DNA of 35,569 nt from Tissierellia bacterium (lineage in GTDB: Bacteria > Bacillota > Clostridia > Tissierellales > Tepidimicrobiaceae): the NCBI GenBank assembly GCA_012728595.1, contig JAAYEU010000071.1:1-35569 (forward strand), written 5' to 3'. Below the pieces are notes generated by a model. That model had not been told where the DNA came from and searched no databases. It was given only the letters and a program-made list of their open reading frames with translations. A program made the translations under genes and the position numbers. Shown here in pieces: positions 5,810 through 35,569 of this stretch; the first letter of the stretch is position 1, and each line of letters opens with the position of its first letter.

Positions 5810-8800
5810 CTATTTGGATTTGTTATAATCTACCGTTCCCAATAAGGTGGAAAATATGTCACATAATGTTTTGGCTAGATTATAATTATTGTAGTCGAAT
5901 TCCTTTTCCTTTATGGGGACTGTAGCATAGACTACACCCTTGATCTGGTATTTAAATATCAATGGTATGGCTATTACCGATTGCCAATTTGGTGTCTTTA
6001 AGTTGAGATTTTCTTCACTTATACTTTCCCAGTCGATTAAGAATTCTCCCTCACCCTTATTTACAATCCTCTTAACTATGGTTTCGTTTAAAAAATCTGT
6101 TTCTACCCAATTTAAATTCTGTCTCCTTCTACCATAGGAATTAAGGATTTCTTTACTGCTGGGTTCGATTTCAATAAAGGCACAATTTTCCGCTTCTAAA
6201 ACCTCTATAACCCGGCCCAAGAAATTGAATATCTTGTCTTCATAGTCTATGTCTTCATTTGTTATTTTAATTACATCTAGCAGTGCTAAAATATTTCTTT
6301 GATCCCTATTTGTATTACCTGAAATAATCCCTGCTAATCGGTCTCCTCTGTTTAGGGTGTCGGCTAAATTTGTATCCCACATTATAACTCTATTTTTTCC
6401 TCTCTCCTTTGCACAATAAAGGGCCTGGTCTGCCTTTTCTATTAACTCCTCTTTAAACTGGCTATGGATAGGAAACATGGATATTCCAGTGCTTATGGTT
6501 ACCGCTTTCTCTATTGCAGGCAGCCTTATGTCCTCGATATTTTGTCTGATTTTTTCAGCTATGGTCTTAGCCTCGTCTTCCAACACATTTCTAAGTATTA
6601 TTATAAATTCTTCTCCACCATATCTTGCCACCAAGTCGGTACTTCTTATGCTTTTCTTTAATATCCTTCCTATTATGCTTAAAATTTCATCACCAGTCCT
6701 GTGACCATAGGTATCGTTTATCTCCTTAAATCCATCTAAATCCAACATTAAAACCGCAAAGGATTCCTCTTTCCGTTTAGCTTCCATCAGAATCTTGTTA
6801 AACTCGCTTTCATAATACTTTCTAGTATAGATACCCGTTAGCTTGTCTACATTGGAAAATACCCTTAATCTGTAATTGTCTATATTTATATATAGTATTT
6901 TGGCTAAAGAATTAACTAGATTTTGTCTTTCTTTATCAAATCTATTGAATACTCGCCCTGTTTCTAAGTAGACATATCCTTCTATTCTATTAGAACGGCC
7001 TACCACCTTCTTCCTTCTTTCTACACTAGGTGTTTCTGGCTGAATTAAGGGAACAAAAATGGGAACGCATATTATTGCCCTAATATTCTGTGGTAAAAAG
7101 TCCTTGTGTAAGCCTATAATATTGCTGCCCAAGCTGCTTAATAGTATTCCCCTGTCGTACCTACTCGATAAGGCCAGCAAATTCTCATTAGGCTTCCACT
7201 GATCCTTATCATCAAGGCTGGCAATGGGTATATAATCATCCTTTTCTTCATCATAGCTTAGAATAAATCCCTTTTGAGCTAGGGTCTCTTTGGATAGATA
7301 TTTCAAAATTAGATTTAAGTTAAATTGATAGTCATTTGTTAGTCTAGCTATTAATTCTTCAATGGAGGAAACATCCTTTATGTCCTCATATAGATAGTTT
7401 AATTTAGTAATCTTTATAAAATGCTCATCATCTATAAGATCGAATATGGAGTTATAATCAAAGTATATATCTATAGGCTCCTCAGCCTTCAAGTCATCTA
7501 TATATACAAAGTTTAACCTTTTATTGCTTATATTATAGATGGCCTCGGAAAGAATACGCTTTATGTCATCGGTCTTATGCCTTTTTATAAAGCTGATTTG
7601 TAGACTCCTCAAAGGCACCTTCTTTATTATGCTGTATATTAAATCTAAGGCCTCTAAAAGATAGTTTATAGCTTGATAATACTTCCCTTCCTTTGCAAAG
7701 TTAGTAGCTATTATGGTATTTAATAATATATCCAGATTTATTATATTGTGCTTTTTCATTTCCTTCTCTAGATTTTCTAAATACCTATTCCTGTCCTTAT
7801 CTCGCCTAGCACTATAGAGTAGTATCATTCTCAAATACTCCAACGGTAGTAAGGATAATTGCTTTCTTAATTCATTGTCTTCATCGATTATGTTGATTAA
7901 AAATTCATAATCATCTTCGAATAATGCTATCAAACCAAATTGCAGTAAGGAGTTCCTTCTTTGGAATATTAACCTGCTAGTCGTCAATTCGGCTAGCAGT
8001 TTTTCCATAGATTTTTTGTCATACTCTCCAGTTTTAAAGTATTTTACAAGAATAAGCCTTCTTTTAGACATTAGATATTCTATATTGTTAAAATCTTTAG
8101 AAAAATCTATGGCCTTATTGGAATATTCTATTGCCTTGTCCCATTGTCCAAAGGTAGAATAGAATTCACCGAGAAAGTTATAGTATTGTCCCACTATTTC
8201 GAAGCTAACGTTAGGGTTTTGAGCATAGCTTTCCTTCAAAATAGAATAACAATTATAACTGTGCCCATATTCTCCAGTAGCTAGATAGATTAGCCCTAGA
8301 TTGATGCTAGTTAAAAATATAATATTGGTATCCTTAATTTCTATTGCAATATTTCTTGCTTCTTCTATGTATTTTTTTGCTTCATTATAGTTTCCTAGAT
8401 TGCAATATACCTCTCCAATATTATTAAGAAATACCAACTTCAAATTTAACATGCCATATTTTTCAACAATCTCTAAGCCCTTTCGATAATACTCCATGGC
8501 CTCTTCATATTTACCGTTTTGAATGAATACGTTAGCAATATTATTGATGGGTTTGGTGGAATTGGTAAATTGGTCTGTAGCTTGAAAATATTTTATGCTC
8601 TCTTCATAGAATTCAATTGCAGCCTCTATATTCCCCTTAAAATATTCTACAAGACCCTTTAAGTTATAGATATCCCCCAATACTTCTTCTATTTTATTGT
8701 CCCTTGTAAAGCTTAATTGACCCTCTAGACTCCTTTCCATCTCATCCAATTTGCCTAAACTAAGCATGACCCTATTATATATTACTTCCGCCTTGGCTAT

Positions 8801-11224
8801 TCCCAATGGATAATGATTTTTTTCCGACAGGGATTTAATCTCTTCAGCCATAGTCAATATCTCATCTGTCAAATTTCTCTTAAGGTAGACCTCAGAAATC
8901 CCTAGCTTTGCAAGTACAATATACCTGTAATTCCTTATTTTTTCAGATTTTTCTAACAGTTCCTGGTATACTTTTAGGGCTTTATCGTTTTCACCCTTTA
9001 AGAAATATATGTTACCTAAAGACTCTAAAACCTCTAAGCTATATTCAATATCCATGTCTTTTACTATTTCATAAGCCTCTTCCCAAAGATATAGGGAGTG
9101 GCTGCTCATTATATTTTCCTCTTTTCTTGCTTCTTCTATTATTAGGCTTAGGGCCTTGTCCCTTTGCTTGGACGATATTAAATGGTGTATAAGCTCTTCC
9201 ATAATAGGCCTATAATTGTCCTTATAATTTCTTAGCAGTAGTTCTGCCAACTTCCTGTGGATGGCAATCCTTTCTTCCACGGGCATGTTATAGTATATTA
9301 GCCTTTTTAATTGGATATTATTTATGCCATAACTGTATCCCCAATCAGCTACCTTCTCTTCCAAAAGCCCCATCTTAACCAGTTCTTCCAGCCTTCCATT
9401 TAGATGTTTGTTTTCCTCATCTATTATTTTGGAAAGGATAGACTTAGAAATAGAGTCGTTATAAGCAGAAACTATCTTCATTATATCCATATATTGGCTA
9501 TCGATTAATGATATTTGATTCTTTAAGGTCTCGTCCCTACTGGTTGAAAAGTAAATATCCGTATATTTTTGGGTCCTAATCTCCCAAAATCCATTTTCAT
9601 TTATAAAAAGCTCTTCCCTTGCAAATAAATCCTTTAATACGTATTCAATATACCTTGGGTTACCATCACTTTCCCTTAATATTACAGCTGAAAACTTTAA
9701 GGGTTTATAGTTCATTCCCAATATGCATTGTATGAATTCCCCAATCTCTGCTAAGTTGAAGTTGGAAATCTTTATGGCTTCCACTCCTTCATAATTTAAA
9801 AGGTCGTTAAATATTTTTTCCTTTAAAGTTCCCTTGGGGATTTGCCTTTCATTGTAGGAGGCAATCATGACTAAGTTAGTATTATCCATATTTTCTACTA
9901 TATATTTAAATAAGCGCAAGAATTCCCCGCTACAATGGTCTATATTATCGATAATTAAGTATATTGGCCTTTCTTTAGTCAAATCCTTAAAGTAGTTGGT
10001 TATCCTATTATAGAGCCTAAGACTTTCCTTATCCCCGCCTATTTCATATAGGGGGTCAGCGTTTAAGAGGTATTTAAGCTCTGGTAAAACTTTAACAAAT
10101 TCTCTCCCGTACTTGTCCAGTATGTGATCTGGAGCATCTTTTAAAGTCTGTCTCAATATGTTGGTGGCAGGTTTTAGGCCTCGTTTGATGCTTTCGTTTA
10201 TTTCTAGAAAATATACTTCCCTTCCTCTCATCCTCAAGCGATGGGATATTTCTTTTAATAATCGAGTCTTTCCCACTCCTGTATCGCCGCTAACTAGTAC
10301 TATCCTTTTGTCCTTCTTATTGGCTATAAGATTATCATCTAGCTTAAGTACCCTTTCAACCTCCTCTTTTCTGCCAATTATCCTAGTTTTAAAGTTGAGA
10401 AAACTTCTCTCTTTGATTAAATCAAATTCATGCTCTATATTAAACAGCCTTTTAATATCCCTAATTATATCCCTTAAAGATATTTCTCTAGTTACTGGAT
10501 TATTTTTTGTTAACTCTCTTATAATATGCTTTAGATAGTCTACTTGAGCCCTGTCCATCTGATGGATATCCTTAAAACGATAGCTGGAACCCACTGAATA
10601 AAAGTCTTCCGTTAATAGATATAAAATCAACATCCCTAAGGAATACTTGTCCGAATTATAGCTTACAATTTCCTCCTGTTCCAACAATACCTCCGGAGCT
10701 AAAAAATACCTGGTAAGGTCTGAATAACTCCTGTTTACTACATTTTCGAATATATTGATTAAGTCCATGACCTTAATATCACCATTATCCAAAACAAATA
10801 TGTTAGATGGACTTAGATGTTTGTATACTATTCCTCTATAGTGTAGAAAATCCAGTAGATTACACAGCTTAAGTATGATTTTAAGCTTTTCTTCTAAACC
10901 TAGGCCCTCATGTACTTCAGCTAATGTAGGACTATCTATATATTCTGTAGTAGAATAATACCTTTTTATATTTATTTTTTTCCTGTCAATGGTTTTAATT
11001 ATAGAAAATTGTTCGCTTGAAAGCAAATTATCATGGCTAATGTGGGCGATATCGATGAAGTTGTTTATAAGATAATTGATGACCTTCTCCTGCCTATCCA
11101 TATTGTACATCTTCATAAATAGCCGTCTATCGTCATTCCAAAAATCTATTACTTCATAGACGCTATTATAAATGCTTTCCTCTACAATTTTGCTAATCTT
11201 ATACCTATTATCAACTAGCTTCAT
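5810..11224 (-). CDS. 1804-aa signalling protein: kinase-like, AAA ATPase, TPR, GAF, GGDEF, GAF
   Basis: Domains in order: protein-kinase-like fold (about 5-265); AAA_16/STAND-type ATPase (about 280-560) with Walker A GDTGVGKT at 313-320 and Walker B IYLIIDNID near 421-429; a helical and TPR region (about 640-1240) with clear repeats such as DIYNLKGLVEYFKGNIEAAI and VFLNNIGEVYCNLGNYNEA; a GAF-like domain (about 1285-1450); a GGDEF diguanylate cyclase (about 1453-1615) with DLDGFKEINDTYGH, active GGEEF at 1536-1540 and an RxxD inhibitory site R1527-D1530 five residues before it; and a second GAF-like domain (about 1640-1800). There is no membrane segment. The kinase domain keeps K38 and D154 but has YKHLSPSN where HRDLKPSN is expected, so it is probably a pseudokinase. 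PknK-like kinase-AAA-TPR proteins share the front half; the likely output here is c-di-GMP. It follows the marR gene by 28 bases. Confidence 0.88.
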   Translation of the reverse strand: MKLVDNRYKISKIVEESIYNSVYEVIDFWNDDRRLFMKMYNMDRQEKVINYLINNFIDIAHISHDNLLSSEQFSIIKTIDRKKINIKRYYSTTEYIDSPTLAEVHEGLGLEEKLKIILKLCNLLDFLHYRGIVYKHLSPSNIFVLDNGDIKVMDLINIFENVVNRSYSDLTRYFLAPEVLLEQEEIVSYNSDKYSLGMLILYLLTEDFYSVGSSYRFKDIHQMDRAQVDYLKHIIRELTKNNPVTREISLRDIIRDIKRLFNIEHEFDLIKERSFLNFKTRIIGRKEEVERVLKLDDNLIANKKDKRIVLVSGDTGVGKTRLLKEISHRLRMRGREVYFLEINESIKRGLKPATNILRQTLKDAPDHILDKYGREFVKVLPELKYLLNADPLYEIGGDKESLRLYNRITNYFKDLTKERPIYLIIDNIDHCSGEFLRLFKYIVENMDNTNLVMIASYNERQIPKGTLKEKIFNDLLNYEGVEAIKISNFNLAEIGEFIQCILGMNYKPLKFSAVILRESDGNPRYIEYVLKDLFAREELFINENGFWEIRTQKYTDIYFSTSRDETLKNQISLIDSQYMDIMKIVSAYNDSISKSILSKIIDEENKHLNGRLEELVKMGLLEEKVADWGYSYGINNIQLKRLIYYNMPVEERIAIHRKLAELLLRNYKDNYRPIMEELIHHLISSKQRDKALSLIIEEARKEENIMSSHSLYLWEEAYEIVKDMDIEYSLEVLESLGNIYFLKGENDKALKVYQELLEKSEKIRNYRYIVLAKLGISEVYLKRNLTDEILTMAEEIKSLSEKNHYPLGIAKAEVIYNRVMLSLGKLDEMERSLEGQLSFTRDNKIEEVLGDIYNLKGLVEYFKGNIEAAIEFYEESIKYFQATDQFTNSTKPINNIANVFIQNGKYEEAMEYYRKGLEIVEKYGMLNLKLVFLNNIGEVYCNLGNYNEAKKYIEEARNIAIEIKDTNIIFLTSINLGLIYLATGEYGHSYNCYSILKESYAQNPNVSFEIVGQYYNFLGEFYSTFGQWDKAIEYSNKAIDFSKDFNNIEYLMSKRRLILVKYFKTGEYDKKSMEKLLAELTTSRLIFQRRNSLLQFGLIALFEDDYEFLINIIDEDNELRKQLSLLPLEYLRMILLYSARRDKDRNRYLENLEKEMKKHNIINLDILLNTIIATNFAKEGKYYQAINYLLEALDLIYSIIKKVPLRSLQISFIKRHKTDDIKRILSEAIYNISNKRLNFVYIDDLKAEEPIDIYFDYNSIFDLIDDEHFIKITKLNYLYEDIKDVSSIEELIARLTNDYQFNLNLILKYLSKETLAQKGFILSYDEEKDDYIPIASLDDKDQWKPNENLLALSSRYDRGILLSSLGSNIIGLHKDFLPQNIRAIICVPIFVPLIQPETPSVERRKKVVGRSNRIEGYVYLETGRVFNRFDKERQNLVNSLAKILYINIDNYRLRVFSNVDKLTGIYTRKYYESEFNKILMEAKRKEESFAVLMLDLDGFKEINDTYGHRTGDEILSIIGRILKKSIRSTDLVARYGGEEFIIILRNVLEDEAKTIAEKIRQNIEDIRLPAIEKAVTISTGISMFPIHSQFKEELIEKADQALYCAKERGKNRVIMWDTNLADTLNRGDRLAGIISGNTNRDQRNILALLDVIKITNEDIDYEDKIFNFLGRVIEVLEAENCAFIEIEPSSKEILNSYGRRRQNLNWVETDFLNETIVKRIVNKGEGEFLIDWESISEENLNLKTPNWQSVIAIPLIFKYQIKGVVYATVPIKEKEFDYNNYNLAKTLCDIFSTLLGTVDYNKSK

Positions 11225-26928: not shown

Positions 26929-27615
26929 ATGAGGCTCCCTAAACATATAGGGATAATTCCTGATGGCAATAGAAGATGGGCTGTAAAAAATGGTCTTCCC
27001 AAGGAAGCTGGCTATCAGGAGGGCTTAAAACCAGGGTTAGAGCTCTTTAAGTTATGCCAACAACTGGGCATAGAGGAAATAACCTATTATGGTTTTACCA
27101 TGGATAATACTAAAAGGCCTAGAGAACAAAGGTTGGCTTTTACCAAAGCCTGTGTAGAGGCAGTAAAGATGCTATCTAAAGAAAATGCATCTTTGCTAGT
27201 TGTGGGCAATACTGAATCTGACATGTTTCCCAAGGCCTTATTGCCCTTTACCATTAAAAGACAGAACTTTGGTAGCGGAGGAATTAAGGTAAACTTTCTA
27301 GTCAATTACGGTTGGCAGTGGGATTTAAGGAATTATTTTACTTCCCATGAAAAGAACCCTAATTTGACCCAATTAATAAGATCTAGGGATATTTCAAGAG
27401 TAGATCTTATAATACGTTGGGGAGGTAGAAGGCGATTAAGTGGCTTTCCTCCCCTTCAAACGGTATATTCAGATTTCTACGTAGTAGATGATTATTGGCC
27501 TGATTTTAAAGCAGAGCACCTTTATGCTGCTTTAAAATGGTATGACAAGCAGGATATAACCTTAGGGGGTAACCCCTTTTTTTATTGCTTTTATAGTAAT
27601 AAGATGCTAAAATAG
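26929..27615 (+). CDS. Divergent cis-prenyltransferase (UppS-family) homologue
   Basis: The 228 residues follow UppS almost from end to end: HIGIIPDGNRRWAVKNGLPKEAGYQEG at the start and RLSGFPPLQTVYSDFYVVDDYWPDF near the C terminus. Family members condense isopentenyl diphosphate onto allylic diphosphates in cis; housekeeping UppS makes undecaprenyl diphosphate. Several conserved positions differ: DGNGRW is D12-GNRRW, the usual AGH is AGY, FSTENW reads FTMDNT, and Arg167 occupies the Glu position of the RxGGExR segment. The Asp that binds magnesium diphosphate is retained. It is thus probably not the cell's main UppS and may make a shorter or different prenyl chain, or have lost activity. It may be transcribed with the serine dehydratase genes that follow 23 bases on. 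Confidence 0.82.
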   Translation: MRLPKHIGIIPDGNRRWAVKNGLPKEAGYQEGLKPGLELFKLCQQLGIEEITYYGFTMDNTKRPREQRLAFTKACVEAVKMLSKENASLLVVGNTESDMFPKALLPFTIKRQNFGSGGIKVNFLVNYGWQWDLRNYFTSHEKNPNLTQLIRSRDISRVDLIIRWGGRRRLSGFPPLQTVYSDFYVVDDYWPDFKAEHLYAALKWYDKQDITLGGNPFFYCFYSNKMLK

Positions 27616-27638: not shown

Positions 27639-28310
27639 ATGAAAGAATATGGAATATTCGATATATTAGGGCCGGTTATGATTGGACCTTCCAGCTCCCA
27701 TACAGCAGGTGCTGCAAGGCTTGGTAAAATCGGAATGGAAATAGCTGGTAGTGGATTTCATAGGGTTAGATTCTATCTCCACGGTTCCTTTGCTAAAACC
27801 TACAGAGGACATGGTACCGATAGAGCTTTAGTAGCAGGCGTTCTTGGCATGGAACCCTCTGATGAGAGAATAAAGGACTCCTTAAATATCGCCAGGGATA
27901 GGGGAATCGATATTGAATTTATGGAGGCTGATTTAGGATACGTTCATCCGAATACGGTAAAAATGGTCTTCTATTATAAGGATAGGGATGTCTATTATGT
28001 AACGGGTTCTTCTATTGGAGGGGGTAGTATAATAGTTATAGATATAAACGGAAATGAAGTGGAGTTTACTGGGGACTATCCTACTATATTGATAAAATAT
28101 GAAGACCAAAAAGGAACTATTAGCAGGATTAGCGCAATTCTTTCAGATGAAGATATTAACATAGCTACAATGAAGGTAACTAGAGAAGGTAATGTGGCAA
28201 CTATGGTTATGGAAATAGACAATCCTATAAAGAGTAAGGTTATAGACAGAATCAGAAACTTAGATGAAATACTATATGTTAAGGGTATCAATTCTATTAG
28301 GAGGGCTTAA
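27639..28310 (+). CDS. sdaAB: L-serine dehydratase, iron-sulfur-dependent, beta subunit
   Basis: The 223 residues have the signature GPSSSHTAG at 16-24, the conserved LHGSFAKTYRGHGTDRALVAG, and a C-terminal ACT domain (about 148-223, ILIKYEDQKGTISRISAILSDEDINIATMKV), typical of the two-subunit type of Firmicutes. With the alpha subunit it deaminates L-serine to pyruvate and ammonia through a [4Fe-4S] cluster. The ACT domain may bind serine as a regulator. The ATG is behind GAGAGGAGG. The alpha gene begins two bases after this stop. Confidence 0.96.
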   Translation: MKEYGIFDILGPVMIGPSSSHTAGAARLGKIGMEIAGSGFHRVRFYLHGSFAKTYRGHGTDRALVAGVLGMEPSDERIKDSLNIARDRGIDIEFMEADLGYVHPNTVKMVFYYKDRDVYYVTGSSIGGGSIIVIDINGNEVEFTGDYPTILIKYEDQKGTISRISAILSDEDINIATMKVTREGNVATMVMEIDNPIKSKVIDRIRNLDEILYVKGINSIRRA

Positions 28311-28312
28311 AT

Positions 28313-29179
28313 ATGTTCAATACAGGCAAGGAATTGTTGGAATTATGTAAGGAAAAAAATAGGAAGATATCTGAAATAGTCATAGAAAGGGAAATGGAAC
28401 ATAATAAGATGTCCTTTGACGAGCTTATGGACAAGATGAAACTGGTCTTAGATACCATGTTAAAATCTGCCCATAGCGGATTAGATAAGGAAATCATATC
28501 GGTTTCAAAACTTTCAGGAGGCAATGCAAAAAAACTGGAGGATTATAAGAATAGTGGTAGGACCATTTGTGGCGACCTTATAAATTCCGCCATGGCCAAA
28601 GCCCTATCTACTTCAGAGGTCAATGCCTCTATGGGAAAAATTGTAGCCGCTCCAACGGCTGGCGCCTCGGGAATAGTGCCTAGTGCACTTATTACTGTAA
28701 AGGAAAAATTCAACCTAACGGAAGAAAACATGATACATGGTTTATTTACAGCTGGAGGAATTGGTGAAATAATAGCAAAAAATGCTACCATTTCTGGGGC
28801 TGAAGGTGGATGTCAAGCGGAATGTGGCGCTGCCAGCGCTATGGCTGCTGCTGCGGTAGTAGAAATGGCAGGTGGAGATGTTGAAGCCTCTTTAAACGCT
28901 GCTTCTTTTGCCTTAACCAATGTAATGGGCTTGGTATGCGACCCAGTAGCAGGTTTAGTGGAATTCCCTTGTGCTTTAAGAAATGCATCTGGGGTAATCA
29001 ATGCCTTGTTATCTGCAGATTTAGCAATGGCAGGAATTAAGTCTTTAATACCTTTTGATGAGGTAGTTGAAGCTATGTATATGGTAGGTAAGGCTATGCC
29101 AGAGTCTTTAAAGGAAACTGCCTTAGGTGGAGTAGCTGCCACTCCAACTGGAGAGGAGTTTAAAAGGAGGGTTTTATGA
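28313..29179 (+). CDS. sdaAA: L-serine dehydratase, iron-sulfur-dependent, alpha subunit
   Basis: The 288 residues contain the catalytic serine dehydratase region with KIVAAPTAGASGIVPSALI, GGIGEIIAKNATISGAEGGCQAECGAA and MGLVCDPVAGLVEFPCALRNA. C167, C209 and C220 have the 42- and 11-residue spacing of the three cluster ligands in characterised bacterial enzymes. No C-terminal tail cysteine is present. The start follows GGAGGGC at the end of sdaAB. The stop overlaps the start of the giant downstream gene in an ATGA, so translation is coupled. Serine degradation to pyruvate is a common energy route in amino-acid-fermenting anaerobes. Confidence 0.96.
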   Translation: MFNTGKELLELCKEKNRKISEIVIEREMEHNKMSFDELMDKMKLVLDTMLKSAHSGLDKEIISVSKLSGGNAKKLEDYKNSGRTICGDLINSAMAKALSTSEVNASMGKIVAAPTAGASGIVPSALITVKEKFNLTEENMIHGLFTAGGIGEIIAKNATISGAEGGCQAECGAASAMAAAAVVEMAGGDVEASLNAASFALTNVMGLVCDPVAGLVEFPCALRNASGVINALLSADLAMAGIKSLIPFDEVVEAMYMVGKAMPESLKETALGGVAATPTGEEFKRRVL

Positions 29180-32100
29180 TTAAAGCCTTTGAAAATGTAT
29201 ATGAGTTCATTTTAGAAGAGATAAAAAAGGATTATCTATTACCCTATCAAGAGGAGTTAGTTTGTTTTACAGAGGCTGATGGCTTTAAAAGAAATTTAAA
29301 AGAACTAATATTAAAAAAACAATATGATGCCCTATCATTAATAGATCTTTTACATGACCTCTTTGCTAAATATAAAGACATCTCAAATATGGATTGGTTA
29401 AACTATATCTATGATTATGTGTTAAGCCTATCCTTTCCTGAAAAGGTCGGTAGGGACTTTGAAAGTAGCTTAACTCCTCTAGTAATTTTTTTCCTAAATC
29501 TTTTAAGAAGATTTTGTCAATTAGAAATAGAGTATGATGAATCTAGCTTTCTCTATAAATATCCCATTAGCTTTTTAAATGAGGAAGAGGAAAAGGAAAG
29601 TAAATCTTTAAATGAGTATTTAACCTTTAAAGATTCCTTTTTTAACAACTGGATATACGAATTGATGAAATTAGATCTATCCTTGACCAATCACAACACC
29701 CTAGACCATGTAGTTGGAGTTAATCACTTAAGTCTTAATATAGCTAGACAATTAAAGGACTTAGGGCTGCCTATAGATTTAGGCATTGTAGTTGGAGCTG
29801 GCTTAGGCCATGATATAGGCAAATACGGTGTGGAAGATAATGACAAGGATAGGGTTCCTTATCTTCACTACTACTATACTGAAAAATGGTTTAATGAATA
29901 TAATATGCCAAAAACCGGCCATATTGCTACCAACCATTCCACCTGGGACTTGGAATTGGAAAATCTCCCCTTGGAATCCCTAGTCCTAATCTATGCCGAT
30001 TTCAGGGTGAAAAACAAAAGGGATGAAGCGGGCCATAAAATGCACATCTACACCCTAGATGAAGCCTACCGCGTCATACTCAACAAACTGGACAACTTAG
30101 ATTCAAAAAAGGAAAGAAGGTATGAAAAGGTATATAAAAAACTCAAGGATTTTGAAGACTATATTATAAGCCTAGGGGTAGATACTAGTTTAAGGAAGAA
30201 GTCCACAAAAAAAGTGGATCCAATCCCCTATTCCTTAATAGATGGTGAAGAGATAGTAAAAAACATAAAGCACTTTGCCATTGAACATAATATAAATCTT
30301 ATGGCTAGGCTCTTAGAAGATGCTAGTTTCGATAATTTACTGGAGATGGCAAGATCTGAATACAACTGGAGGAGGCTTCGCCAAATTTTACAAATATTCA
30401 AAGAATATTCTACCTACCTAACCCAAAAACAAAAAATAGTAACCTTGAATTTTCTAACGGACCTTTTATTCCACAGGGAAGAAGATATACGGAATGAGGC
30501 CGCCCAGTTAATAGGTCTTCTAATAAGCCAGTATGATGAGGAATATAGAAAGGAAATACCCAAATCAGTTAAGCCAGACCATAAGGATACTACTAGCTAT
30601 CAGCTATTAAAGGAATTATTGGATTTTATCTTATATCCAGATCATAGGGTGGCAGATTCCCATATAGAATGGCAATATAACCTAAAAACCATTATTAAAT
30701 CCTTATTCCTAAAGGCCAGAGTAGAAAACTATAAAGAGTATTCCCAACTTTTGTTGGAATATTACCAACACTATAAGTCCATGGCCTTTACCAGCCAATT
30801 GTATCTAGCTCAAACCATTAAGTACATTCCCCTAGCCTACTTAAAAGATGAGGAGTTAAACAGGCTAAAAGATTATATCCTTAACCAGTTGGACTCTAGT
30901 GAATTGGAAATAAGGCTTTCTACTCTAGATATAATTGACGAAATATTCTCTGAATTAAAGGATAAGGGTGGCTTCCTAGCAGCCTTAGATAGTTGGATAA
31001 GGAATAATCTACAGATTTCTCCCTACCCTTCCGAAAACTATTTGAAATTTAAATTGGCTAGAAAGCTTAATATGGAAGAAGATATCTTAAATATATTAGA
31101 AAATAATTACAAGGGGGTAGAGGAAAACACCTCCGAGATTTACTTAAAGAATTTAAAAACGGCTACGGAATGGATGGATAAAAAGGTAAATATAGATATC
31201 CTATACGACCAGGTAAAAAAATCCCCTAAAACTTTTGGCCTATATACCGGCATGCATTTTTGTAATCTATTAAAAGTCAGTGCCATGGAAAAAGTGCGTA
31301 ATTATGCAGGCCACACACTACTCCATATATTTAAATTTCTATCTCAGGAGGAAAGAAACGATATTGCCATAGAGCTATTAAGGGCTTTAGAGATGCAAAA
31401 CTACCAATTTACCAAGTATATTCCCGATTATCTTGGTAGACTTTTATTATACCTACAACCTACTGAATTGGATGAAGTAATAGATGATTTAGAGGAAAAA
31501 GTCAGACTATCCAACACCCAAATTGTCTTCTTACTACTAAAAACCATAGGTGTATGCATCGAAAATTATCCCGAATATGCTAAAAGATTTGATGAATCCA
31601 AGATATCCAATAAAAGGAGATTGGAAAGACTGTTGGGGCTTTTATTAAATGGAATGGTTTCCTTTAACGATGAAATAAAGACCGAGGCTTTTAGAATCAT
31701 AGGCAGTCAAATTTTCAATTCAAGTAAACTATCCCTAGAGGATAAACATAATATCTTTATCCTAATTGGGAAGAAGATTCTGACCCTACTGCCTAAGAAG
31801 GAGGATGACGAATTTGTATTCTTAAGTAACTCTTCCTCCCTAAACAGCATATACAGGTTCATATTGGACTATGAGCTAAACTACGGCAGCATAAGGATTA
31901 AAGAACATAAAAGGATAGCCTTTTTCCCTGGCAGCTTCGACCCCTTCTCTTTAAGCCATAAAAAAATCGTAACGGAGATTAAGGAAAAAGGCTTTGAAGT
32001 ATATTTAGCAGTAGATGAGTTTTCCTGGTCTAAAAGGACTCAGCCCCATAGGTTTAGAAGGGATATCATAAACATAGCCATCGCCCATGAAAGGGATGTA

Positions 32101-34023
32101 TATTTATTCCCCAGCCAAATTCCAATTAATATAAGCAACGACAAGGATTTGTCTAAGTTGAAATCCCTTTTCAAAAACAAGGAACTGTTTATAGTTATGG
32201 GGACAGATGTTTTGGTTAATGCATCTGCCTATAAAAAGGATGGGCTAATAAACCAATTTAACCATATAGTATTCGATAGAAAGAGTATCCACTCCAAGGA
32301 TGATGATGACTACATCTTGGAGGAAAGGTTAAAAAATATAAGGGGTAAGGTTTTAAAGCTTTCCTTACCTCCCCAGTACGAGGATATTAGTTCTAGCCAG
32401 ATAAGGCGTTCTATAGATTTAAATAGGGATATTTCCAACCTAATAGACCCACTAGCTCAAAGATATATCTATAGGTATGGCCTATATTTAAATGAGCCTC
32501 AATATAAATTTCTAGTCCAAACTAAGACCTTAGAAACGCAAGTAATCGATAAAATAGACCATTCCACAATTGAATACTTAAGGGGTAAATTGACCCATAG
32601 AATAGATGAAAAGGCTCTTTATGAATTGAGGGATAAGCTAAGTCCAACTATAGTATTGGTTAGGGAGACCAAGGATAATTCCATATTGGGCTTTTCTACC
32701 CTTTACTGGGTGAAGAGCAATATGCTCTACGATGAATTTGAAAATACCAATATAACGGAATATTTTAGGCAGCATGCTAAGGGTAGAATGGTATTGATAT
32801 CTGGCATATATACCAAGGACAATAGCTATAGTAGTGCTGAAATCATTTTAAATGAAAGCTTAACCCATTGCATCAATACCGACTATAATTATGCCATATT
32901 TAAAAATTGCCTAACTAAATATAATGAAGACTTTATAAAGGAGAACCTAAAGCATCAGGGCTTTATTGAAACCCCCTTTATCTACAATGACTGCCCAATT
33001 TTTATGGTAGATATGAACAATCCTATGACCTTAAATCAAGACTTGGAAAATCTATTAAAGCCACCTTTTGAAGGGATTTTAGAGGTAAATGAGGTCATTG
33101 GAAGAACCAGAAAGAAGTTAAAAGAGGCCATCTCTAATTTATATCCAGGTGAACTCTTGATCTCCTTTAATAGGAATATGATATACAGTAAATTAATTGA
33201 AAAGATATGCAGCACCAATCAAGTACCCATCCTTCAAAAAAAGCAGAGTATGTTAGGCCCAAATATCTGTGTTCCCTTTGGCTCAATATTAAACGGTGCA
33301 GTGCTGCCAAATACCGTTACTAAAACCATGCACACGGAAAAGGTATTTAATTCAAGTATAAGCGATTTTACCATTCAAGCTTACCCTAATTATCTAAGCT
33401 TAGAAGAACAGACTAAAGTGATTAAATCCTTCAATAGACCAGTAATTCTAGTAGACGACTTACTCCATAAGGGGTATAGATTAAATGTAATAGTGCCCTT
33501 ATTACGGGAAGCAAGCATAAGTATCAAGAAGATAATAGTTGGAATCCTAACGGGTAGGGGCCAAGAAATGGGAAAGGTTAAAAATATTCCTGTAGACTGT
33601 GCCTACTTTATCCCGAATTTAAAACTATGGTTTAATGAAAGCGATCTATATCCCTTCATAGGAGGAGATATGGTAGAAAAAGACGATTTTAAGGATTACT
33701 TAATACCCAGTGTGAATTTAATACTACCCTATGTTTCACCTAACTTTATAAAAAACACCCCTACTAAAAATATATACAATCTATCTGAAACTTGCCTTAA
33801 GAATGCAATTGAAATCTTTGAAGTTATAGAAGGGGTCTATCAGGATATTAATGGGAAAAACCTAATAGTTAAAAACTTGGGAGAGATATTGATCTCCCCT
33901 AGAAGGCCAGATTTATACAAGAGTATAGAATCCATTTTAAACTTAAAGCCTTCCTCCTGTCTAAAGAGGGATTTAGGCCATCTTGAAAGGATTAAAAATT
34001 TAGTCTTTAGAGAAGTATTGTAA
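29176..34023 (+). CDS. 1615-aa multi-domain protein: HD, helical repeats, NadD-like, GNAT-like, phosphoribosyltransferase
   Basis: The ATG overlaps the sdaAA stop (ATGA). Domains by eye: helical N terminus (1-165); HD phosphohydrolase (about 170-335) with LDH178, GLGH212-D213-IGKYG, TGH249 and YAD275F; a long HEAT/ARM-like helical region (about 360-900); a nucleotidyltransferase like NadD (about 912-1105) with FFPGSFDPFSLSH (918-928), VMGTD (1008-1011) and ISSSQIRRSI (1071-1080); a tentative GNAT-like segment (about 1115-1280); and a type I phosphoribosyltransferase region (about 1330-1480) whose PRPP loop is RPVILVDDLLHKGYR (D1427, D1428). The HxGH of NadD reads SLSH. The usual HD-nadD neighbourhood (yqeK beside nadD) makes the HD-NadD fusion plausible. 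Soluble; no signal peptide. Domain calls for HD, NadD and PRTase are good; overall function unknown. Confidence 0.8.
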   Translation: MIKAFENVYEFILEEIKKDYLLPYQEELVCFTEADGFKRNLKELILKKQYDALSLIDLLHDLFAKYKDISNMDWLNYIYDYVLSLSFPEKVGRDFESSLTPLVIFFLNLLRRFCQLEIEYDESSFLYKYPISFLNEEEEKESKSLNEYLTFKDSFFNNWIYELMKLDLSLTNHNTLDHVVGVNHLSLNIARQLKDLGLPIDLGIVVGAGLGHDIGKYGVEDNDKDRVPYLHYYYTEKWFNEYNMPKTGHIATNHSTWDLELENLPLESLVLIYADFRVKNKRDEAGHKMHIYTLDEAYRVILNKLDNLDSKKERRYEKVYKKLKDFEDYIISLGVDTSLRKKSTKKVDPIPYSLIDGEEIVKNIKHFAIEHNINLMARLLEDASFDNLLEMARSEYNWRRLRQILQIFKEYSTYLTQKQKIVTLNFLTDLLFHREEDIRNEAAQLIGLLISQYDEEYRKEIPKSVKPDHKDTTSYQLLKELLDFILYPDHRVADSHIEWQYNLKTIIKSLFLKARVENYKEYSQLLLEYYQHYKSMAFTSQLYLAQTIKYIPLAYLKDEELNRLKDYILNQLDSSELEIRLSTLDIIDEIFSELKDKGGFLAALDSWIRNNLQISPYPSENYLKFKLARKLNMEEDILNILENNYKGVEENTSEIYLKNLKTATEWMDKKVNIDILYDQVKKSPKTFGLYTGMHFCNLLKVSAMEKVRNYAGHTLLHIFKFLSQEERNDIAIELLRALEMQNYQFTKYIPDYLGRLLLYLQPTELDEVIDDLEEKVRLSNTQIVFLLLKTIGVCIENYPEYAKRFDESKISNKRRLERLLGLLLNGMVSFNDEIKTEAFRIIGSQIFNSSKLSLEDKHNIFILIGKKILTLLPKKEDDEFVFLSNSSSLNSIYRFILDYELNYGSIRIKEHKRIAFFPGSFDPFSLSHKKIVTEIKEKGFEVYLAVDEFSWSKRTQPHRFRRDIINIAIAHERDVYLFPSQIPINISNDKDLSKLKSLFKNKELFIVMGTDVLVNASAYKKDGLINQFNHIVFDRKSIHSKDDDDYILEERLKNIRGKVLKLSLPPQYEDISSSQIRRSIDLNRDISNLIDPLAQRYIYRYGLYLNEPQYKFLVQTKTLETQVIDKIDHSTIEYLRGKLTHRIDEKALYELRDKLSPTIVLVRETKDNSILGFSTLYWVKSNMLYDEFENTNITEYFRQHAKGRMVLISGIYTKDNSYSSAEIILNESLTHCINTDYNYAIFKNCLTKYNEDFIKENLKHQGFIETPFIYNDCPIFMVDMNNPMTLNQDLENLLKPPFEGILEVNEVIGRTRKKLKEAISNLYPGELLISFNRNMIYSKLIEKICSTNQVPILQKKQSMLGPNICVPFGSILNGAVLPNTVTKTMHTEKVFNSSISDFTIQAYPNYLSLEEQTKVIKSFNRPVILVDDLLHKGYRLNVIVPLLREASISIKKIIVGILTGRGQEMGKVKNIPVDCAYFIPNLKLWFNESDLYPFIGGDMVEKDDFKDYLIPSVNLILPYVSPNFIKNTPTKNIYNLSETCLKNAIEIFEVIEGVYQDINGKNLIVKNLGEILISPRRPDLYKSIESILNLKPSSCLKRDLGHLERIKNLVFREVL

Positions 34024-34038
34024 GAGGGTGAGTAGAAT

Positions 34039-35289
34039 ATGATCAATTTTTATAGATATAAGGATAAATACTTTTTCTCCTTCCTAAAATATGATGAATT
34101 TGAAAAGGTGCGAGAAGAAGAACTTAAGAGGGTTGAAGGGAATATCTATTTTCTAAATAGACTAGACCCTATGAAATCGAGAAGAAGTTTCCTGGTAAGT
34201 CATCCCTCCCTCTTGTTCATCGATAAAGAGGGAGTTGAGCTGCTCCTTTTAGATACTAAAGACTATTCCCATTTGATACCCCCTTGGATAAGGGATAGGA
34301 TTTATAAAGGACTGGTTACCTCAATCAATACCTCTTATCCTAATTGGGAAACTGAGTTATATAAAGAAGATAAGTCCAAATGGAAAGTAAATCTATTAGC
34401 TTTAGGGGATGTAGGCAGTACCCTATTAATTGGCTTAAGACTATTAGGTAAGGATTGCATAGATGAGATAGGAATTTATGATAGGAATATCAATAGGTTG
34501 AAGCGGTGGGAATATGAAGCCAACCAAATAGTAAAACCCTTTTACAAGGAACCATTTCCAAAGGTTATTCCTTTGAAAATGGATGAGCTATTCGATTGTG
34601 ATATCTTTATCTTTTGTGCCTCCAAGGGCATACCCCCTGTAGGCAGTAAGGTAGATGATGTAAGGATGGCTCAATTTGAGTCCAATTCTAATATAATAAA
34701 GGAATATGCAACTTTGGCGAGGGATGTAAACTTTAAGGGAATTTTTGCTGTCGTTTCAGACCCGGTAGATTTATTGTGTAAGGTAGCCTTTTTGGAAAGC
34801 AATAAGGATGAAAGAGGAGAGTTTGATTTCAAAGGTTTAGCATCAAACCAGATAATTGGTTACGGACTGGGAGTTATGAACGGCAGAGCCTGCTTTTATG
34901 CAGAAAAATCCAAGGATACCATCCATTATCTAGAAGAAGGAAGGGTGTTTGGTCCTCATGGGGAGGGATTAATCGTAGCCGACAGTATAGAAAACTATAA
35001 TGAAGAAATTTCAGACTTCCTAACCCACAAAACATTGAATGCCAATAAGGAGATTAGAAAATTTGGATTTAAACCCTATGTCGCCCCTAGCCTTTCTTCA
35101 GGTGCCCTCTCCATTATAGCCACCATTAAAGGAGAATGGTTCTATGGTTCAACCTATATGGGAGAGGCTTATATGGGGTCTAAGTGTAGGCTTAGAAATA
35201 ACAGCATAGAAATTGAACAGTTGAAACTTCCTTCTAAACTATTTGAAAAAATAGAAAAGACCTATGAAAGGCTAGTGAGTATAATATGA
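34039..35289 (+). CDS. Divergent lactate/malate dehydrogenase-fold protein
   Basis: The 416 residues carry ~115 unrecognised N-terminal residues and then a Rossmann domain: VNLLALGDVGSTLLIGLRLLG (G123 to G126) with acidic D148 in IGIYDRN, which favours NAD over NADP. Next come DCDIFIFCASKGIPP, R209 at the substrate-loop Arg position, and VVSDPVDLL like the SNPVDIL of lactate dehydrogenases. The C-terminal domain keeps R283 (equivalent to the substrate-binding Arg171) and H307 in GPHGE, but the Asp that partners the catalytic His is replaced (Met280). It may be an oxidoreductase with altered chemistry or an NAD-binding non-enzyme. It follows the giant gene by 15 bases and overlaps the next gene by ATGA. 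Confidence 0.8.
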   Translation: MINFYRYKDKYFFSFLKYDEFEKVREEELKRVEGNIYFLNRLDPMKSRRSFLVSHPSLLFIDKEGVELLLLDTKDYSHLIPPWIRDRIYKGLVTSINTSYPNWETELYKEDKSKWKVNLLALGDVGSTLLIGLRLLGKDCIDEIGIYDRNINRLKRWEYEANQIVKPFYKEPFPKVIPLKMDELFDCDIFIFCASKGIPPVGSKVDDVRMAQFESNSNIIKEYATLARDVNFKGIFAVVSDPVDLLCKVAFLESNKDERGEFDFKGLASNQIIGYGLGVMNGRACFYAEKSKDTIHYLEEGRVFGPHGEGLIVADSIENYNEEISDFLTHKTLNANKEIRKFGFKPYVAPSLSSGALSIIATIKGEWFYGSTYMGEAYMGSKCRLRNNSIEIEQLKLPSKLFEKIEKTYERLVSII

Positions 35290-35569
35290 AAGAATACTAT
35301 CTAATATTGCCGGAAGAACCCTCTCCCCTATTAAAAAAGATGATAGAAAAGACTACCAAAGACATAGATTATACCGTCTTAAAAGATTATGAAGCCTTAC
35401 CCGACCTAAGAAACAAAAGGCTGATCTTTGCCGTTGAATTACCCATAACGGGGACTAGCAATAAATTAAACGATTTTTTCTTAAAGCTCTTTCAAAGGGG
35501 ATATGACTCCTTATCTGGTTCGGAAGGGATTGTATTAATCCACAGTAACTACCAGCACTTTACTAAAAC
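35286..35569 (+). CDS. 5' part of an unrecognised gene (third gene of the coupled cluster)
   Basis: A reading frame opens at the ATG at 35286, which overlaps the previous stop (ATGA), and stays open to the window end, giving 94 residues. The product begins MKEYYLILPEEPSPLLKK and later has RLIFAVELPITGTSNKLNDFF and GSEGIVLIHSNYQHF. The strand-helix pattern is faintly like a flavodoxin-like or Rossmann protein, but I do not recognise a family. The coupling suggests it works with the two genes before it. Confidence 0.6.
   Translation, partial: MKEYYLILPEEPSPLLKKMIEKTTKDIDYTVLKDYEALPDLRNKRLIFAVELPITGTSNKLNDFFLKLFQRGYDSLSGSEGIVLIHSNYQHFTK

Follow-up and report, generated by a model that had tools for sequence, protein, structure and literature searches.

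Does the gene for a 1615-residue protein near the end of a Tissierellia contig belong to a serine dehydratase operon, or to a unit of its own, and what could such a unit do? The window analyzed here is the whole of that contig (C128 of its genome, positions 1-35,569). The gene in question, which we call giant, is followed by a dehydrogenase-like gene, LDHL, and a flavoprotein gene, FLAV. Comparative analysis indicated that these three genes form one functional unit, which is inherited as a whole, lost as a whole and not tied to serine dehydratase. This conclusion is well supported.

A three-gene unit, inherited and lost together

The unit is made up of the following genes.

29176..34023, + strand: giant, five-domain protein of 1615 amino acids (aa), core of the module; an open reading frame (ORF) with full-length homologues in the order, class and phylum samples
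34039..35289, + strand: LDHL, divergent dehydrogenase of lactate/malate dehydrogenase (LDH/MDH) fold, 416 aa; predicted structure and fold match
35286..35569, + strand: FLAV, first 94 residues of a 349-aa FMN-reductase-type flavoprotein; contig overlap, joined translation and PF03358

When the window coordinates were recomputed, the order of the ORFs and all junctions agreed with an earlier note on this DNA, as did its gene coordinates, gaps and overlaps. Giant and LDHL are separated by 15 bases, and LDHL and FLAV overlap by 4 bases.

FLAV runs off the end of the window. The window shares its last 141 bases with the end of another contig of this genome, C91, and the join, which is defined by sequence overlap and not by reads, completes FLAV at 349 aa, down to C91:7970. 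The uninterrupted order of the triad in relatives, with a 349-aa third gene, is consistent with this join. The genes 3' of FLAV on C91 are all convergent: a nucleoside-phosphorylase-like gene, an NAD(P)/FAD-type oxidoreductase and a putative nucleoside ABC importer (named by eye). The operon therefore ends just past the window; the earlier view that it outruns the window was correct.

The distribution of the module was analyzed in 150 genomes of the window's order, 291 of its class and 398 of its phylum, and in 65 fetched giant loci. Giant is present at full or nearly full length in 86 of the 150 order genomes. LDHL is found in 83, all of them giant carriers, and never without giant. FLAV is found in 82, and 81 of these carry giant; the sole exception is a fragment match (genome G064). 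Fisher tests, which ignore shared ancestry, gave p = 3e-39 for co-occurrence of giant with LDHL and 5e-35 with FLAV. Presence and absence alternate inside families (f1 and f5, for example), and repeated joint loss or gain is therefore likely. Giant was found in 30/291 class genomes and 8/398 phylum genomes, counts that include the window's own order and, in the class sample, a few NadD-like matches only (such as G167, G227, G240, G276 and G291).

The three genes are also physically close. Giant and LDHL lie within 120 bases of each other in 57 of the 65 loci, LDHL and FLAV in 58. Adjacency of the triad extends to several phylum-level families and to Acetoanaerobium noterae. In genome G743 giant stands apart, yet LDHL and FLAV are side by side on another contig. 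Giant and LDHL are separated at L107 and L108, both of family f41, by three glutamate-synthase-like genes and an ammonium transporter gene, the latter on the opposite strand. The expectation that the three genes stay together in related genomes is thus upheld by adjacency and by co-occurrence (83/86 and 81/86). The module is mostly single-copy, and the named cultured organisms [Clostridium] ultunense and A. noterae carry it.

Viral contigs and phages contained no relative. The plasmid collection gave a single match, to a 2.6-Mb Acetoanaerobium record that is classed as a plasmid but that we take to be a chromosome; a viral or mobile origin was rejected. A role in defence was rejected as well, with no match in PADLOC. 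Sporulation does not define the module either: the overlap with SpoIVA is loose (64 genomes with both, 22 with giant only, 26 with SpoIVA only).

Domains and conserved residues of the three proteins

From the N terminus, giant contains an HD hydrolase domain, a HEAT-type stretch, an adenylyltransferase domain of NadD fold, a GNAT fold and a phosphoribosyltransferase (PRTase) fold.

29608..30210, + strand: HD phosphohydrolase domain, giant aa 145-345; PF01966 and HDIG matches
30211..31890, + strand: HEAT/ARM-type helical repeat region, aa 346-905; PF02985
31897..32511, + strand: NMNAT/NadD-fold adenylyltransferase, aa 908-1112; PF01467, TIGR00482 and profile match to solved structures
32530..33039, + strand: GNAT-fold domain, aa 1119-1288; AlphaFold2 model, Foldseek and loop alignment
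33079..33714, + strand: type I PRTase-fold domain, aa 1302-1513; PF00156 below cut-off, Foldseek and motif alignment

Pfam matches showed that the HD, NadD-like and PRTase-like stretches named in the earlier note are real; the GNAT fold and the HEAT repeats had been missed.

PF01966 matches giant at 2.1e-04 in Pfam, with the HD core near aa 175-280, and is detected in 10 of 27 members of the giant family. The H...HD...D metal ligands of HD phosphohydrolases are present, and H231 and H254 are found in addition. Together, H178, H212-D213, H231, H254 and D275 make up the dinuclear-type signature H...HD...H...H...D, a six-residue pattern that goes with two metal ions in the HD superfamily. Searched against NCBIfam, the HD alignment matched no YqeK model at E<0.01, although whether that library holds one was not checked. 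Sequence searches of the PDB with the HD domain and with the PRTase domain gave nothing useful. PF02985 HEAT repeats were found in 13 of the 27 homologues (best 1.2e-05).

The NadD-like stretch matches PF01467 at 5.7e-08, and its profile matches solved nicotinic acid mononucleotide (NaMN) adenylyltransferases, best 5llt at 7e-11. The motif GSFDPFSLSH is located where the NadD consensus has GG(T)FDPxHxGH. Its second His (H928) is kept in 62/62 copies with a neighboring LDHL, as is ISSxxIR, while the first position of (H/T)xGH is mostly Ser (SLSH). The equivalent residues in 5llt are TYAH. DE(F/Y)SWSK is invariant in intact copies. A canonical NadD above cut-off is present in 10/10 genomes tested, including the window's own (C175:1161-1742). 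Giant is therefore an additional, putative adenylyltransferase, outside housekeeping NAD synthesis.

The AlphaFold2 model of aa 1106-1615 (pLDDT 91, 55 sequences) revealed a GNAT fold followed by a type I PRTase fold. Foldseek matched it to N-acetyltransferases and to uracil, xanthine and adenine phosphoribosyltransferases (UPRT, XPRT and APRT), with E values of about 4e-05 to 1e-03. The TM-scores, normalized by target length, fall in a moderate range (0.4-0.6), which a query made of two domains would be expected to give. For the PRTase part alone, E values against UPRT, XPRT and APRT are about 5e-05 to 1e-03 and TM-scores by target 0.39-0.47, in agreement with the fold. The PF00156 match is weak (0.025) and below cut-off. 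The Q/RxxGxG/A loop that binds the pyrophosphate of coenzyme A (CoA) in GNAT enzymes was not found in the alignment, where the loop after the central strand is variable. In common with UPRT, XPRT and APRT, the PRTase domain has the fold and the DD that closes the central strand. It differs from them in conserved motifs of its own, PNTxTK..H.EK and W.NE..YPF.GGD, in addition to DDLLxKGYR. The first Asp of DDLLxKGYR is kept in nearly all copies.

The predicted structure of LDHL (pLDDT 93) superimposes on the best solved LDH with a Z score of 29.6 and a root-mean-square deviation of 2.7 Å over 279 residues, and the whole LDH/MDH fold is present. His307, Arg209 and Arg283 are invariant and correspond, as a set, to the catalytic His195 and the substrate-binding Arg109 and Arg171 of LDH. 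Unlike members of the LDH/MDH family, LDHL has about 110 extra N-terminal residues, scores far below the LDH cut-offs and carries Asp in place of the active-site Asn140 in alignments to solved LDH/MDH structures.

FLAV strongly resembles the NADPH-dependent FMN reductase/flavodoxin-like family. PF03358 was detected in 21/21 homologues (best 8.5e-23), and the [Clostridium] ultunense homologue scores 71.6 bits against a gathering cut-off of 24. The match covers the C-terminal half, and four cysteines, spaced CxxC-x4-C-x8-C, are invariant. About 160 extra N-terminal residues and the strict partnership with giant set FLAV apart from this family.

Conservation in giant follows the presence of its partner. 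Every HD and adenylyltransferase residue checked is kept in 62/62 giants with a neighboring LDHL. Adenylyltransferase residues are lost in three of the four giants without one. In L075 (genome G083, which has no LDHL match) nearly all HD and adenylyltransferase residues are gone, and this copy is probably decaying or repurposed. L118 (G299) and L121 (G341) are solitary second copies in which HD and PRTase residues are kept and adenylyltransferase residues lost. The fourth, L135 (G743), is intact and has an LDHL elsewhere in the genome. Outside this set of giants, the adenylyltransferase domain of the Clostridium sp. Cult2 copy (L005, 10001-16380) has lost about 118 residues in frame (aa ~1003-1120), and the FLAV ORF of that genome is also shortened, to 207 aa; this operon looks like a case of joint decay. 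The pattern suggests that the catalytic residues of giant are under constraint. The partnerless groups are small, and the argument is therefore suggestive. L118 and L121 are each preceded by a divergent gene of ~310 aa resembling an aminoglycoside-phosphotransferase-type kinase.

Possible functions of the module

The module, its domain folds, the conservation of its motifs and its co-loss are established; from them we infer every reaction, substrate and product considered below. Our preferred reading, held tentatively, is an accessory pathway, distinct from housekeeping NAD synthesis, in which an NAD-like dinucleotide is made, modified or repaired. It is favored because canonical NadD is present in the same genomes and because NadD-YqeK offers a precedent. 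NadD occurs fused to the HD enzyme YqeK, a diphosphatase that proofreads by hydrolyzing wrong analogues of nicotinic acid adenine dinucleotide (NaAD) (PMC9426524). The earlier note had proposed a nucleotide-like pathway, possibly linked to NAD; giant and its two followers are indeed one unit, and a link to NAD is no more than possible.

In the proposed mechanism, the NadD-fold domain would most likely move AMP from ATP onto a phosphorylated nucleotide-like acceptor. The HD domain would cleave a phosphoester or diphosphate bond, either in the adenylylated product or in a wrong product or precursor, as YqeK does in NadD-YqeK fusions. The PRTase-fold domain may make or bind a phosphoribosylated substrate. 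The HEAT region could serve as a scaffold. The GNAT-fold domain is probably a substrate-binding unit and not an acetyltransferase. LDHL and FLAV would oxidize or reduce the moiety handled by giant, or take its product as a cofactor.

Several observations weigh against an accessory NAD-like pathway. Residues that mark NaMN adenylyltransferases differ in giant, where HxGH is replaced by SxSH. The TIGR00482 score is 41.6 bits, against a NadD cut-off of 112, and ranges over 36-57 bits across ten genomes. The PRTase domain lacks the TGxT phosphate loop of the DDxxxTGxT motif that binds phosphoribosyl pyrophosphate and has KGYR instead, and four LDHL-partnered copies are without one PRTase marker residue; this domain may be non-catalytic. 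Given the missing CoA loop of the GNAT fold and KGYR in place of TGxT, both domains may therefore bind rather than catalyze. In LDHL, profile alignment places Met280 at the position of the catalytic Asp168 of LDH, so that the active site departs from that of LDH/MDH. Finally, no genomic link to NAD synthesis was found beyond the domain folds, and no genomic association pointed to a particular substrate. NadC is rarer in genomes with giant (15/86) than in those without (23/64, p=0.013), and a link to de novo NAD synthesis through it was rejected.

In a bolder form, for which the chances are rather low, the product would be a new NAD-like dinucleotide cofactor or signal of anaerobic Bacillota. 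A base or acid would be phosphoribosylated and adenylylated by giant, edited by the HD domain, and used or reduced by LDHL and FLAV.

It is also conceivable, though unlikely, that no new molecule is involved and that the module monitors the quality of the ordinary nicotinamide pool. The HD domain would cut damaged NAD(P)(H) or its fragments, the NadD fold would re-adenylylate, and LDHL and FLAV would restore the redox state. The proofreading of NAD synthesis by NadD-YqeK fusions (PMC9426524), the redox nature of both partners and the ordinary NadD in the same genomes agree with this. On the other hand, the substrate-site residues of the adenylyltransferase differ from those of NadD, and the recurrent neighbors included no recognizable Nudix, NAD kinase or NAD(P)HX enzyme. 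Giant is missing from 64 of the 150 order genomes, though NAD damage is universal.

We give a lower probability to a dinucleotide signal, either a dinucleoside polyphosphate (ApnN) or a cyclic or mixed dinucleotide, made and degraded by the NadD-fold and HD domains; the PRTase and GNAT folds would sense ligands, and the two oxidoreductases would report the redox state. Predicted nucleotidyltransferase and HD activities would be opposed on one chain, the degenerate PRTase and GNAT sites fit ligand binding, and YqeK hydrolyzes diadenosine tetraphosphate (Ap4A) (PMC9426524). Downstream of the module, about 10 loci (L050-L072) have a small gene for an alarmone synthetase of RelA/SpoT-like type (cluster c13, assigned by eye). 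It is on the opposite strand, however, and outside the unit, and a pair of LDH-fold and FMN reductase proteins is atypical of signaling systems.

Modification of RNA or protein is improbable. In this case the HEAT scaffold would hold a macromolecule, which the nucleotidyltransferase would adenylylate and the HD domain restore. A 560-residue HEAT-type scaffold and a GNAT-type fold are common in macromolecule-modifying enzymes, but the NMNAT/phosphopantetheine adenylyltransferase-type fold mostly acts on small molecules, and the obligate dehydrogenase and flavoprotein partners do not fit such a role.

Serine degradation, which the earlier note saw as supplying or consuming a substrate of the pathway, is very improbable as a contributor. 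The genes concerned are directly 5' of giant.

27639..28310, + strand: sdaAB, L-serine dehydratase beta subunit, local passenger 5' of the module; TIGR00719 above cut-off, adjacent in a minority of related loci
28313..29179, + strand: sdaAA, L-serine dehydratase alpha subunit, local passenger; TIGR00718 above cut-off

Both assignments are firm: the scores are 254 bits for TIGR00719 (cut-off 161) and 406 for TIGR00718 (cut-off 243). They are separated by 2 bases, and sdaAA overlaps giant by 4 bases (ATGA), an arrangement also found in the nearest families. Only 13 of the 65 loci have SdaA at a distance of 120 bases or less from giant; all are from a few families near the window's own, mostly f1, f5, f13 and f15, and most families have the triad without sda. 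Serine degradation is therefore outside the unit; the proposed partnership was rejected, and the link to sda is incidental. That giant is the organism's own NadD, as the similarity of aa 908-1112 to the NadD family might suggest, is barely credible beside the canonical NadD of all ten genomes.

One more gene recurs 5' of giant.

26929..27615, + strand: UppS-like second, divergent cis-prenyltransferase; PF01255

A second divergent UppS is present in 19 loci. The copy in the window scores 142 bits, compared to 286 for the canonical copy on C117. Its frame (26929-27615) continues beyond the ...DITLGG at which such proteins usually stop and enters a terminator-like hairpin (27564-27578). The gene is probably a separate transcript. 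UppS was left out as a fourth member, being absent from many loci and having this hairpin at its end. A separate 1804-aa ORF (window 5810-11224, minus strand) has a protein-kinase-like N-terminus, an ATPase, TPR-like repeats and GGDEF (by eye).

Comparison with known systems

Across many Bacillota families, a chain of about 1600 residues with at least two, perhaps four, nucleotide enzyme folds is kept together with two redox partners. Co-inheritance this strict implies a definite biochemical function. An NAD-like product would enlarge a small set of redox cofactors; a repair system would carry the principle of NadD-YqeK proofreading over to a machine dedicated to it.

The component domains are from known families, and the pairing of NadD with HD is known. 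We found no paper describing the module in a literature search limited to open access, and a description elsewhere is possible; the defence and phage family libraries likewise held no system of this composition. The earlier statement that no such system had been described is in line with this.

For the HD domain alone, the best curated match is the DVU_1551-type NTP-transferase family (NF045665), in 34/39 members (best 7e-09); the match is partial and below cut-off. Unlike giant, proteins of this family bear one different NTP-transferase domain, as judged from the family name and model only.

The closest parallel in organization is provided by the mycoplasma NadD-YqeK fusions (JCVISYN3A_0380) and the nadD-yqeK pairs of Gram-positive bacteria (PMC9426524). 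Like giant, they place an NMNAT fold and an HD domain, with opposed synthesis and hydrolysis, on one chain or in one operon. In giant, the HD domain precedes the nucleotidyltransferase, about 560 HEAT-type residues separate the two, and GNAT and PRTase folds follow. The module further differs from NadD-YqeK in its obligate LDH-fold and FMN-reductase partners and in the canonical NadD that is also present.

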